From positions 1 through 64,000 of the forward strand of contig NZ_ATYW01000024.1 in NCBI RefSeq assembly GCF_000427885.1: a DNA stretch of 64,000 nt. Reading direction: 5' to 3'. A program made the position numbers and the translations under genes. Below are positions 57,144 through 60,868 of the stretch, in pieces. The notes beneath the pieces were generated by a model, which saw only the letters and a program-made list of their open reading frames with translations, searched no databases and had not been told where the DNA came from. The stretch is from Glycomyces tenuis DSM 44171 (GTDB lineage Bacteria; Actinomycetota; Actinomycetes; Mycobacteriales; Micromonosporaceae). The first letter of the stretch is position 1; each line of letters opens with the position of its first letter.

Positions 57144-59171
57144 CTACTCCCCCGCCGCCGAGGGGCCCGTGTTGACGCGGGATTCGACGACGTCGACGAC
57201 GTGGGCGAGGGCCTCGTCGACGGGGACGCCGTTGCGCTGGGAGCCGTCCCTGTAGCGGAAGGAGACGGTGCCGGCGTTCTGGTCCTCGTCGCCGACGATC
57301 ACCATGAACGGGATCTTCTGGAGCTGGGCGTTGCGGACCTTCTTCTGCATCCGGTCGTCGGAGTGGTCGACCTCGCAGCGGATGCCGCGCTCGCGGAGCC
57401 TGGCGAAGAAATCGTCGAGGTAGTCGGCGTTCTCGTCGCGGACGGGGATGCCGACGGCCTGCACCGGGGACAGCCACGCGGGGAACGCGCCCGCGTAGTG
57501 CTCGGTGAGGACCCCGAAGAACCGCTCGATGGAGCCGAACAGGGCCCGGTGGATCATGACCGGCTGCCTGCGGGTGCCGTCGGCCGCGGAGTACTCCAGG
57601 GCGAAGCGCGCCGGCTGGTTGAAGTCCAGTTGGATGGTCGACATCTGCCAGGTCCGGCCGATGGCGTCCCTCGCCTGCACCGAGATCTTCGGACCGTAGA
57701 ACGCCGCCCCGCCGGGGTCGGGCACCAGATCGAGCCCGGAGGACTCGGCGACCTCGCGCAGCGTGGCGGTGGCCTGCTCCCACAGGGCGTCGTCGCCGAT
57801 GAACTTCGACGAGTCGTCCTTGGTGGAGAGCTCCAGGTAGAAGTCGCTGAGGCCGTAGTCGCGCAGCAGCTCCAGCACGAAGGACAGCAGGCTCGCGATC
57901 TCCCCGGGCGCCTGCTCCTCGGTGCAGTAGATGTGCGCGTCGTCCATGGTCAGGCCGCGGACACGGGTGAGCCCGTGGACCACGCCGGACTTCTCGTAGC
58001 GGTACACCGACCCGAACTCCGACAGGCGCAGCGGCAGCTCCCGGTAGGAGCGTCCCCGCGACTTGTAGATCAGGTTGTGCATCGGGCAGTTCATGGACTT
58101 GAGGTAGTAGTCCGCGCCCTCGAACTCCATGGGCGGGAACATCGAGTCCGCGTAGTACGGCAGGTGCCCGGAGGTCTCGAACAGGACCGACTTGGTGATG
58201 TGCGGGGTGTTGACCAGCTCGTACCCGGCGGCCTTCTGCCGCTCGCGCAGGTAGGACTCCATCTCCTGGCGGATGATGCCGCCCTTGGGATGGAAGACCG
58301 GCAGGCCGCTGCCGAGCTCCTCGGGGAAGCTGAACAGGTCGAGCTGCTGGCCCAGCTTGCGGTGGTCGCGCTTGGCGGCCTCCTCCAGGCGCTGGAGGTA
58401 GTCCTTCTGCTCGGCCTTGCTCGGCCAGGCGGTGCCGTAGATCCGCTGGAGCTGCGGGTTCTTCTCCGAGCCCATCCAGTAGGCCGCGGCCGAGCGCATG
58501 ACCTTGACCGCCCCGATGAGGCGGGTCGAGGGCAGGTGCGGGCCGCGGCACAGGTCCGACCAGACGCGCTCGCCGCTCTTGGGGTCGAGGTTGTCGTAGG
58601 CGGTGAGCTCGCCGCCGCCGACCTCCATGACCTCGTCGGCGTCGGTGCCCTCGCCCTTGGTCTCGATCAGCTCGAGCTTGTAGGGCTCGTGCGCGAGCTC
58701 GGCGCGGGCCTCGTCGAGCGAGGCGTACTTGCGGCGGCGGAAGGGCTGCCCCTGCTTGATGATCTGAAGCATCCGCTTCTCGATCTGCTTGAGGTCATCG
58801 GGGGTGAACGGCTCGGCGACGTCGAAGTCGTAGTAGAAGCCGTCGGTCACCGGCGGGCCGATGCCGAGCTTGGCCTCGCGCAGCTCCTGGACGGCCTGGG
58901 CCATGACGTGCGCGGCCGAGTGGCGCATGACGCTGAGCCCGTCGGGGCTGTTCAGCGGCACCGGCTCGACCTTGGCGTCGGCCTCGGGGACCCACGCGAG
59001 GTCCCTCAGGCGGCCGTCGGCGTCGCGGACGACGACGATCGCGTTCGGGCCGTGGACGGGGAGACCGGCCTCGGCCACCGCGTCGGCGCACGTAGTGCCA
59101 GCCGTCACCCAGAGCGGTTCGGTCGCGCTCACGGCGGGGACTGGACTGGTGTTCGGCGCTGCGGATGCCAC
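57144..59171 (-). CDS. thrS: Threonine--tRNA ligase
   Basis: 675 residues. The N-terminal TGS domain (about 15-75) precedes the editing domain with [12 protein letters not shown], the catalytic core with motif 2 ([17 protein letters not shown]), the zinc ligands in [22 protein letters not shown] and [13 protein letters not shown], and the anticodon-binding domain (about 570-665). Complete and of normal length. It charges tRNA-Thr. The start at 59171 is preceded by GGGAGAACC. Confidence 0.97.
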
Positions 59172-59303
59172 GGTTCTCCCTCAATCGTTCGGCCGAGCGG
59201 GGCTCGGCGCTCATTTCGCGTCAATGGTAGTCGCCGTCGGGGAACGGGCTCCAACGCATTACCGGCGCGACCTCCCCCGCCGGAAGTTTTCCCGGGCGCG
59301 GAC

Positions 59304-59334
59304 TTGACCTTAGAGCCGACTCCAAGGTTTACGG
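59304..59334 (+). promoter_or_regulatory. MerR-type promoter/operator, probably leaderless
   Basis: TTGACC (59304-59309) and TTACGG (59329-59334) are 19 nt apart, the overlong spacer typical of MerR-controlled promoters. The spacer is filled by a dyad ACCTT-A-GAG....CTC-C-AAGGT (59307-59328). The -10 box ends 7 nt before the ATG of the MerR gene, with no ribosome site between, so the transcript probably starts at or next to the start codon. Confidence 0.85.
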
Positions 59335-59341
59335 TCGATCC

Positions 59342-59776
59342 ATGACCACCGCAACCGCACCGCTCACCGTCGGGAAGGTCGCCGAGGCCGTGGGCGTCTC
59401 GGCCGACACCATCCGCCACTGGGAGCACGAGGGCCTGTTCCCGGCCGCCGGGCGCAGCGCGGCCGGCTACCGGCGCTACGGCCCCGAGGCGATCGACCGG
59501 GCACGGTTCATCCGCACCTGCCAGGGCGCGGGGCTGCGGCTCGGCGACATCGCCGACCTGCTGGCCGTGCGCGACACCGGCGTGTGCCCGTGCGAGCCGG
59601 CCGAGCAGCACCTGGAGCGGCGCATCGGCGAGATCAGCGCCGAGATCGCCAGGCTCGAGGGCTTGCGGTCCCAGCTCACGTCGATGCTGCGGGCGGTCGA
59701 GGACGGGGGCTGCGGCGAGCCGCTGCCCGCGAACTGGTGCCCGCCCGAGCAATGCGAGGAGGGAGGTGCGACATGA
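59342..59776 (+). CDS. MerR-family heavy-metal-responsive regulator
   Basis: 144 residues. The winged helix begins TVGKVAEAVGVSADTIRHWE and GYRRYGPEAI; a dimer helix (about 88-118) follows. Metal-type cysteines are at 60, 82, 84, 124, 133 and 138 (GVCPCEPAE and CGEPLPANWCPPEQC), as in ZntR/CadR-like sensors. It likely twists its own promoter (see 59304) when metal binds. It autoregulates together with a 15-residue Cys-rich ORF whose ATG overlaps its stop. The metal cannot be decided from sequence. Confidence 0.9.
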   Translation: MTTATAPLTVGKVAEAVGVSADTIRHWEHEGLFPAAGRSAAGYRRYGPEAIDRARFIRTCQGAGLRLGDIADLLAVRDTGVCPCEPAEQHLERRIGEISAEIARLEGLRSQLTSMLRAVEDGGCGEPLPANWCPPEQCEEGGAT

Positions 59777-59820
59777 ACGAGGAATGCTGCCCGTGCTGCG
59801 GCCCCGGCTGCTGCGGCTGA
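59773..59820 (+). CDS. 15-residue cysteine-rich peptide (MNEECCPCCGPGCCG), metallothionein-like composition
   Basis: The ATG overlaps the MerR stop in ATGA, with GAGGAGGGAGG ending 6 nt upstream, the best ribosome site in this part of the window. The product has six Cys in 15 residues (5, 6, 8, 9, 13, 14) in three CC pairs, plus two Glu, and nothing else of note. TGA at 59818-59820. Translational coupling to a metal sensor and the Cys arrangement suggest a metal-binding micropeptide. No family known to me has this form; peptide expression is not proven by sequence. Confidence 0.6.
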   Translation: MNEECCPCCGPGCCG

Positions 59821-59899
59821 CCGTGCCCGCGGGTTCCGACCCCGCGCCCGTCCGCTGTCGCGGGCGGGCGCGGCCGGCGCTAGGGGCCGCACCAGCCCG

Positions 59900-60868
59900 T
59901 CAAGCGGTGGTCAGGACGATCTTCCCGAGGTGCCCTCCGGCGCCCATGACGCGGTGCGCCTCGTCCGCGTCGGTCAGCGGCACGCGAGTGGTGACCACCG
60001 GTTTGACCAGGCCGTCGTCGAGGGCGGGCCAGACGTGCTCGAAGAGCTCGGCGAGGATGCTCCGGCGCTGTTCGAGCGGGCGGGCGCGCAGCGTCGTGCC
60101 GGCGACGGTGTGGCGTTTGGACAGGAGCCTGCCCAGGTCGATCTCGGCGGTGCGGCCCTGCTGGAGGCCGATGACGACGAGGCGCCCGTCGGTGTCGAGG
60201 GCCTTGAGGTTGTCCTCGAAGTAGGCCGCGCCGACGACGTCCAGGATGGCCTTCGCGCCTCCGGCGGCCTGGAGTTCGGCCGAGAAGTCCTCACTGCGGT
60301 AGTCGAGGACGCGTTCGGCGCCGAGCGCCTTGAGCTCTTCGGCGAACTCGGATCGGGCGGTGGTCCAGACCTCGGCGCCGACGAGTCGGTGGACGTACTG
60401 GATCGCGAAGGTCCCGATGCCGCCCGATCCGCCGTGGACCAGCACCCGAGGCGGGCGTTCGGGGGATCTCGGCCCGATCAGGTAGCCGAGGTTGGAGTGG
60501 ACGGTGGCGGCGACCTCGGGCAGGGCCGCGGCGTCGACGAGGTCGACGCCTTCGGGCTTCGGCAGCACGAGCCCGGCGTCGACGGCGACGAGTTCGGCGT
60601 AGCCGCCGCCGGAGAGCAGGGCGCACACCTCGGTGCCGACGAGGGCGGCGTTCTCCTCGCCGCCGACGGCGACGATCGTCCCGGACACCTCGAGGCCGGG
60701 CCAGGCGGGCGCCCCGGCGGGGGGTGGGTAGTGGCCCGCGACCTGGAGGAGGTCGGCGCGGTTCACGCCGGCCGCGGCCACCTCGATGAGCACTTCTTCG
60801 GGGCCGGCTTCGGGGTCGGGCACGGTGTCGGCGATCAGTTTCCCGTCGGCGACGGTCATGGCGAGCAT
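59900..60868 (-). CDS. NADPH:quinone oxidoreductase-like zinc-independent MDR enzyme
   Basis: 322 residues of the medium-chain dehydrogenase/reductase superfamily. The N-terminal GroES-like domain has AAAGVNRADLLQVAGHYPPP; the Rossmann domain has RVLVHGGSGGIGTFAIQYVH and ALGAERVLDYRSEDFS. It lacks the cysteine cluster of the zinc-binding alcohol dehydrogenases, so it is most like QOR/PIG3. Reduces quinones or enones with NADPH. ATG 60868; ATG 60859 possible. A hairpin separates it from the ferredoxin reductase gene. Confidence 0.88.
   Translation of the reverse strand: MLAMTVADGKLIADTVPDPEAGPEEVLIEVAAAGVNRADLLQVAGHYPPPAGAPAWPGLEVSGTIVAVGGEENAALVGTEVCALLSGGGYAELVAVDAGLVLPKPEGVDLVDAAALPEVAATVHSNLGYLIGPRSPERPPRVLVHGGSGGIGTFAIQYVHRLVGAEVWTTARSEFAEELKALGAERVLDYRSEDFSAELQAAGGAKAILDVVGAAYFEDNLKALDTDGRLVVIGLQQGRTAEIDLGRLLSKRHTVAGTTLRARPLEQRRSILAELFEHVWPALDDGLVKPVVTTRVPLTDADEAHRVMGAGGHLGKIVLTTA

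Follow-up and report, generated by a model that had tools for sequence, protein, structure and literature searches.

The metallothioneins SmtA and MymT are about 55 residues long, and plants make their phytochelatins, which are very short thiolate chains, enzymatically. Metallothioneins of actinobacteria were reportedly described in silico by Schmidt et al. in 2010, and Canestrari is said to have described poly-Cys leader ORFs of mycobacteria in 2020. The gene of SmtA adjoins that of the metal sensor SmtB (PMC7387436), and short ORFs rich in Cys codons are known in actinobacteria (Shell 2015, PMC4633059; PMC9094748). Among open-licence papers, we found no description of a Cys-rich peptide behind a merR gene. 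Here we describe such an arrangement in Glycomyces tenuis DSM 44171, which we read, with a probability of about 0.7, as a two-gene metal-response operon in which a metal-induced micro-metallothionein is co-transcribed with an autoregulated MerR. The locus lies in a stretch of 64,000 nucleotides (positions 1 to 64,000 of contig NZ_ATYW01000024.1; hereafter the window) and has the following features.

57144..59171, minus strand: divergent gene upstream of merR, which we take to be thrS-like
59304..59335, plus strand: predicted MerR-type operator-promoter, made up of TTGACC, a 20-nt spacer with the dyad ACCTTAGAGCCGACTCCAAGGT, and TACGGT
59342..59776, plus strand: merR-family metal sensor of 144 residues, with Cys82 and Cys84 (CPC), Cys124 and Cys133
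59760..59768, plus strand: Shine-Dalgarno sequence AGGGAGGTG of the peptide ORF, inside the merR 3′ end
59773..59820, plus strand: peptide ORF MNEECCPCCGPGCCG, 15 codons, overlapping merR at ATGA
59842..59873, plus strand: G+C-rich hairpin of 14 bp, 3′ of the peptide, a probable terminator without a U tract
59900..60868, minus strand: convergent gene downstream of the peptide, presumably quinone-oxidoreductase-like

An earlier note on this DNA had placed at 59756-59820 a 15-residue, six-cysteine peptide with three CC pairs, starting inside the merR stop codon behind a ribosome site that ends 6 nt upstream, and the sequence bears out each of these points. The 15 residues of MNEECCPCCGPGCCG include six Cys arranged as three CC pairs. 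The merR 3′ end reads ...GCGACATGA, and the merR TGA (59774-59776) is overlapped by the ATG of the peptide (59773-59775), whose own stop TGA is at 59818-59820. The GGAGG core of the ribosome site lies at 59762-59766, leaving 6 nt between its end and the ATG. The span given in the note is correct, the ORF proper taking up 59773-59820.

For a wider comparison, we took as related-merR loci the window and the best 80 of 137 candidates from one scan in which a 13-row MerR alignment was run against named genomes; the 13 rows had been chosen after peptides were seen behind them, and many of the 81 loci are closely related. A Cys-rich mini-ORF was defined by a length of 9-45 residues, at least four Cys, at least 20% Cys and a start between −20 and +60 of the merR stop. 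Such an ORF is present at 75 of the 81 loci, compared with none of the 522 other genes called at these loci (crude ORF calls) and 8 of 4050 dinucleotide-shuffled copies of the downstream sequence. At two loci (L077 and L117), the merR frame is broken in the record and was read from the match end. The earlier note had named a lack of conservation of the mini-ORF and its ribosome site behind orthologous merR genes as the outcome that would speak against it; with 75 of 81 loci positive, the proposal came through. A strong Shine-Dalgarno sequence by a strict pattern precedes 72 of the 75 peptides and, by a slightly wider pattern, a GGAGG-like core lies 6-11 nt ahead of the chosen start at all 75, counts that lean upwards since the start with the better ribosome site was picked among alternatives. 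The chosen starts span −17 to +38 relative to the merR stop and fall beyond +2 at 36 of the 75 loci. The six loci lacking the peptide are L107 and L111, whose MerR has WR instead of WC, L118-L120, which have distant MerRs, and L047, where the ORF is truncated.

The module is widespread but patchy. Rows of the MerR tree described below that carry the peptide belong to 13 named families (Glycomycetaceae, Micromonosporaceae, Pseudonocardiaceae, Geodermatophilaceae, Nocardioidaceae, Propionibacteriaceae, Micrococcaceae, Ornithinimicrobiaceae, Allobogoriellaceae, Jiangellaceae, Nocardiopsidaceae, Sporichthyaceae and Egibacteraceae), and the peptide also occurs in an Acidimicrobiia MAG (L116) and on a Rhodococcus plasmid (L151). 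A related MerR was found in 41 of 396 phylum-sample genomes at E ≤ 1e-30 and in 6 of 394 class-sample genomes at E ≤ 1e-40, numbers that may be low because only the best few candidates were scored per genome; the four new loci from the class sample (L158-L161) all have the peptide. In 200 genomes of the family, there are 33 merR matches above 130 bits (L003-L035), and the mini-ORF is present at all of them except L011; at L030 a stop lies inside the merR frame and the mini-ORF is found further downstream. Five further family matches of lower score were read as well, L036 with a mini-ORF and L037-L040 without.

Within the genus, an orthologous merR was found at high score in 17 of 22 Glycomyces genomes, this genome included, the other five having weak MerR matches. 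Among the best 80 of the 137 candidates, the named orthologue nearest to the window merR is that of G. arizonensis, at 94% identity. A Cys-rich ORF follows merR in 16 of the 17 orthologues. In twelve, the peptide is about 28 residues long and has ten Cys (for example MSDECCNCCNDDACQCAGEDCCHGCCEK), and in four, the window among them, it has 15-18 residues and 5-6 Cys, the window ORF being a short version of the 10-Cys peptide of about 28-30 codons found in the 12. At the exception, L011, whose sequence is the same as that of L047 (G. lechevalierae), the ORF passes into unlike sequence after CRCAG, an apparent recent loss of the peptide.

The 12 long forms were used for a test of reading frame, which left out the four short forms and the truncated one. 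Their pN/pS is 0.28 in frame, compared with 1.34 and 1.53 in the shifted frames, and is 0.42 when the Cys codons are removed. Across the 26-codon core, variable columns number 7, 8 and 15 at codon positions 1, 2 and 3, respectively. The ten Cys are identical in 12 of 12 long forms, a result to be read with the fact that the pattern excising the core demands them (12 of 12 tried passed). Frame-specific constraint together with fixed Cys therefore bears the mark of a translated and selected peptide, and both the coding nature of the mini-ORF and its linkage to merR are well shown.

The 75 peptides have 11-32 residues and 4-10 Cys, high Cys content having been a search criterion. The final Cys is at the C-terminus or at most two residues from it in all 75, and 51 end in Cys. 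CC is found in 71 and CxC in 64; 72 are net acidic (D+E minus K+R), 60 lack F, Y and W, the other 15 contain an aromatic residue, and 13 have His. Apart from its Cys, the peptide changes rapidly from family to family. In small size, high Cys fraction, CC and CxC motifs and few aromatics, the set has the sequence traits of metallothioneins. Scans of Pfam and NCBIfam with six peptides of at least 20 residues returned no family at E ≤ 10, and two peptides had no match in the PDB, short queries that carry little power; by these scans the peptides fall into no known metallothionein family, MNEECCPCCGPGCCG being too short to scan. In the one peptide-bearing plasmid record examined, no gene is listed in the gap downstream of merR, the gene table being incomplete. 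Both results fit the suggestion in the earlier note that relatives could be missed by gene finders: the six peptides matched no Pfam or NCBIfam family, and the one plasmid gap has no annotation.

Upstream of merR, the window reads TTGACC-TTAGAGCCGACTCCAAGGTT-TACGGT, with 6 nt from TACGGT to the merR ATG. By its sequence, this is the layout of a regulated promoter, with a dyad between the −35 and −10 hexamers and a 20-nt spacer, longer than usual. A consensus promoter scan of the locus gave no match, as expected because a MerR promoter has a long spacer. Across the loci, the consensus is an element like TTGACCTTGGAGNNNNCTCCAAGGTYTACCGTCG ahead of merR. At a threshold of at least 16 of 24 consensus positions, the element precedes merR at 76 of 81 loci and none of 461 control genes taken from them (again crude ORF calls). 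Since the consensus was derived from the very loci on which it was scored, part of the match rate is built in; the zero among the controls is not. Five loci (L111, L115, L117, L118 and L119) fall below the threshold. Because L107, L120 and L047 have the element without the peptide, the element tracks the sensor and not the peptide alone. In this genome, the operator occurs once at up to three mismatches, at the merR site, a search that weaker sites would escape. The merR-site operator is present in all 17 Glycomyces genomes that have the orthologue. Six Glycomyces genomes (G132, G049, G099, G117, G166 and G085) have a second, different operator-like site with a core of the GGAG-GC-CTCCA type. 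The first in-frame ATG or GTG lies 6-7 nt past the −10 hexamer at 71 of the 76 operator loci, a distance from which a leaderless merR mRNA is therefore predicted; in the window, where merR starts 6 nt past the hexamer, the mRNA is probably leaderless as well.

The sensor itself carries the MerR_1 and MerR-DNA-bind domains well above their curated cut-offs (PF13411, 62.9 bits against 21.6; PF09278, 52.4 against 25.4). Against the NCBIfam equivalogs for ZntR, CadR-PbrR and MerR it scores 70.8-71.5 bits, with cut-offs of 143-168, and against that for CueR 60.4 bits, with a cut-off of 147.4. The description of the sensor as ZntR/CadR-type therefore holds as a likeness to MerR proteins for divalent metals and not as membership, the scores being far under the NCBIfam cut-offs. 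C82, C84, C124 and C133 are invariant among 13 aligned MerR orthologues. Aligned by eye with MerR and CadR chains, C84 falls on their sensor Cys; the alignments stop before C124 and C133. The nine-residue spacing of C124 and C133 is that of C117 and C126 in Tn501 MerR. Taken together, the sensor features point to a soft divalent metal, without naming which.

Neighbouring genes bear on the metal as well. At nine of 80 loci, a gene of an LMWPc (ArsC-like) cluster is no more than about 4 kb from merR, and at six there is one of an SBF-permease cluster; the identities of these ars-type neighbours come from Pfam runs on eight proteins from five of the loci. The nine LMWPc-near loci are L064, L065, L074, L086, L088, L089, L090, L098 and L109, and some of them also have SBF-type permease and ArsR genes. 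Because of the ArsC-like and SBF-permease neighbours, As(III) is kept as a candidate. These ars neighbours and the cadmium-type ATPase described next indicate different metals, which counts against our best explanation.

We placed the sensors in a MerR tree of 112 rows, 85 with the peptide, three with a Cys stretch in frame with merR and 24 without, a quick tree from few columns in which 46 of 109 inner branches are open. The peptide label changes 11 times on this tree against a shuffled mean of 25, where 13 of the 24 peptide-less rows are an outgroup picked among MerRs already seen without a peptide. A peptide-less subgroup, made up of L107, L152 and L153, is nested in the main peptide clade. 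In L152 and L153, both on annotated plasmids, merR is divergent from a gene for a heavy-metal P-type ATPase. The two ATPases reach 464.9 and 453.3 bits for the cadmium subfamily and less, 417.8 and 416.0 bits, for that of copper, with both subfamilies over the cut-off; in L107, an ORF of equal length (671 codons) occupies the position of the ATPase gene. Related sensors thus adjoin either a pump or the peptide.

Other variants were seen in the same survey. Behind merR in L126, L130 and L132 are two tandem Cys-rich mini-ORFs, and one tandem mini-ORF is nearly identical (CPCCGCPCGDCGG) in several loci. L122, L137 and L141 have a Cys-rich stretch that shares the reading frame of merR and could be a sensor tail or have an internal start. 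Related MerRs without a mini-ORF of this kind were found in the phylum sample at L127, L128, L134, L136, L140 and L145. Behind these distant MerRs are larger Cys-rich proteins in L145 (63 residues) and L134 (98 residues), neither in a Pfam family, another Cys-rich reading frame in L136, and a CxxC protein in L128 and L140, that of L128 matching thioredoxin/glutaredoxin families; Pfam was run on the next genes of L128, L134 and L145. The gene next to merR in L127 is not thiol-rich. As judged from these gene arrangements, relatives of the module appear to have lost the peptide with an efflux ATPase in its stead, joined it in frame to the sensor, or doubled it in tandem.

At the 3′ side of the window ORF, a 91-nt stretch with the hairpin folds with a z-score of −2.2. 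A consensus scan for U-tract terminators found none, as expected because the hairpin is G+C-rich. No co-oriented gene follows the peptide in the window, the convergent gene at 59900-60868 coming next. The cluster of the upstream neighbour (57144-59171) recurs at at least 12 of 15 Glycomyces loci. Rfam gave no match in 59200-60000 at E ≤ 0.1, and on this result a known RNA element at the locus was ruled out. Several Micromonosporaceae loci (among L020-L032) share a hairpin loop, CCGAGCGCGCCGGCGG, downstream of the peptide; it occurs 30-77 times per genome at up to one mismatch in four genomes, with 4-18 occurrences of the reversed control, and was set aside, being a genome-wide repeat and not an element specific to the module.

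A metal-binding role fits what the peptide sequence, the operator and the sensor cysteines suggest. In the circuit that we infer, MerR would sit on the operator inside its own promoter, and a soft metal bound via C84, C124 and C133, perhaps also C82, would switch it to activation. The metal would most likely be a divalent d10 ion (Zn, Cd, Pb or Hg), As(III) or Cu(I) being possible. One short mRNA carrying merR and the peptide would be made, with merR translated from the leaderless 5′ end and the peptide from the strong ribosome site at the merR stop; with a strong site behind a leaderless merR, the peptide would therefore probably be in excess. As a short acidic thiolate chain, the peptide would hold the metal and lower its free pool, thereby also switching the sensor off. 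Weighing against this circuit are the rapid change of the peptide outside its Cys, the related MerRs that lack it and its scattered occurrence. A further limit is that, by thiolate chemistry, 15 residues with six Cys hold one or two metals at most.

The peptide might instead act in trans on its own MerR, stripping or delivering metal, for signal resetting and not for detoxification. Peptides of 4-6 Cys would offer little bulk capacity, the tight adjacency to one MerR clade and the three loci with a Cys-rich stretch in frame with merR would suit such a partner, and yet separate translation is common, given the starts beyond +2 at 36 of 75 loci, and the strong ribosome site behind a probably leaderless merR suggests excess peptide; we hold resetting alone to be possible but unlikely. 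The same three in-frame cases (L122, L137 and L141) might also indicate that the ORF is a C-terminal extension of MerR, reached by frameshift or readthrough, with no free peptide. That reading fails because of the GGAGG-like sites 6-11 nt before the chosen start at 75 of 75 loci and because the starts vary from −17 to +38, and it is extremely improbable. A precursor that ribosomes make and enzymes then modify, or a secreted metal chelator, would also be in keeping with peptides that are small and dense in Cys and that end in Cys in 51 of 75 cases, but no signal or leader sequence was seen by eye and no single neighbour family adjoins the peptide in most loci, some clusters recurring across families, which makes a product of this kind quite improbable.

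The abundance of Cys codons raises the further possibility of a cysteine-responsive attenuator, in which ribosomes stalled at these codons under cysteine shortage control a downstream gene. Short Cys-codon-rich ORFs are known in actinobacteria (PMC4633059; PMC9094748), and at 29 of 74 peptide loci the next called gene shares the strand of the peptide, whereas it is on the opposite strand at 44 and missing at one (crude calls). In the window, the ORF is the last gene, followed by the 14-bp hairpin and the convergent gene, and does not lie upstream of a gene to be controlled on the same transcript; it stands behind a metal sensor and not ahead of cysteine genes, and its relatives are also constrained at their non-Cys codons (pN/pS 0.42). 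We rejected the attenuator at the window locus on the hairpin and the convergent gene and regard it as unlikely elsewhere, which leaves it highly improbable as an account of the module. Finally, 15 codons are short and TGC is common in G+C-rich DNA, where such an ORF could arise by chance, but the difference between 75 of 81 loci and the gene and shuffle controls (0 of 522 and 8 of 4050), with the frame-specific constraint in the 12 Glycomyces sequences, gives chance next to no prospect of being right, and we rejected it.

Beyond the micro-metallothionein operon, our preferred reading of this locus, there is a broader one to which we give even odds: that actinobacteria have a phylum-wide, overlooked set of micro-metallothioneins, 11-32 residues long, which serve as the chief product of a MerR circuit dedicated to them and are a gene-encoded counterpart of phytochelatins. 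To our knowledge, at 11-32 residues these would be the shortest metallothioneins yet proposed. If this is true, metal buffering by peptides of this size occurs across many actinobacterial families, where gene finders do not see it, and the lower size limit of metallothioneins is well below what has been assumed. Each merR promoter would offer a ready metal-inducible test. The module would combine sensor and buffer in compact form and allow negative feedback through sequestration to be measured, and its relatives form a natural set of peptides with varied Cys spacings for work on metal selectivity.

Compared with described systems, the peptides resemble bacterial metallothioneins (SmtA of cyanobacteria, the Pseudomonas MTs and MymT of M. 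tuberculosis) in being small and Cys-rich with CC and CxC motifs, and differ from SmtA and MymT in being far shorter, at 11-32 residues. Like SmtA, the peptide lies beside its metal sensor, but the sensor here is a MerR-type activator in the same operon, whereas that of SmtA-SmtB is a divergent repressor. The sensor shares with ZntR, CadR, PbrR, MerR and CueR the MerR DNA-binding domains, a TTGACC-dyad-TAnnnT promoter with a 20-nt spacer, and aligned sensor Cys; unlike them, it falls below all equivalog cut-offs, has an extra CPC, and is partnered by a tiny peptide in place of a pump or reductase. The poly-Cys leader ORFs of mycobacteria are likewise short and Cys-codon-rich, but they precede cysteine-related or other genes, whereas the window ORF comes last in a metal-sensor operon. 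As phytochelatins do, the peptides here would buffer soft metals, although they would be gene-encoded. With the in silico metallothioneins of Schmidt and colleagues, they share the phylum and the predicted role. On this comparison, the module would work like a metallothionein operon, but one without a match to a known metallothionein and with an activator of the MerR kind as its partner.
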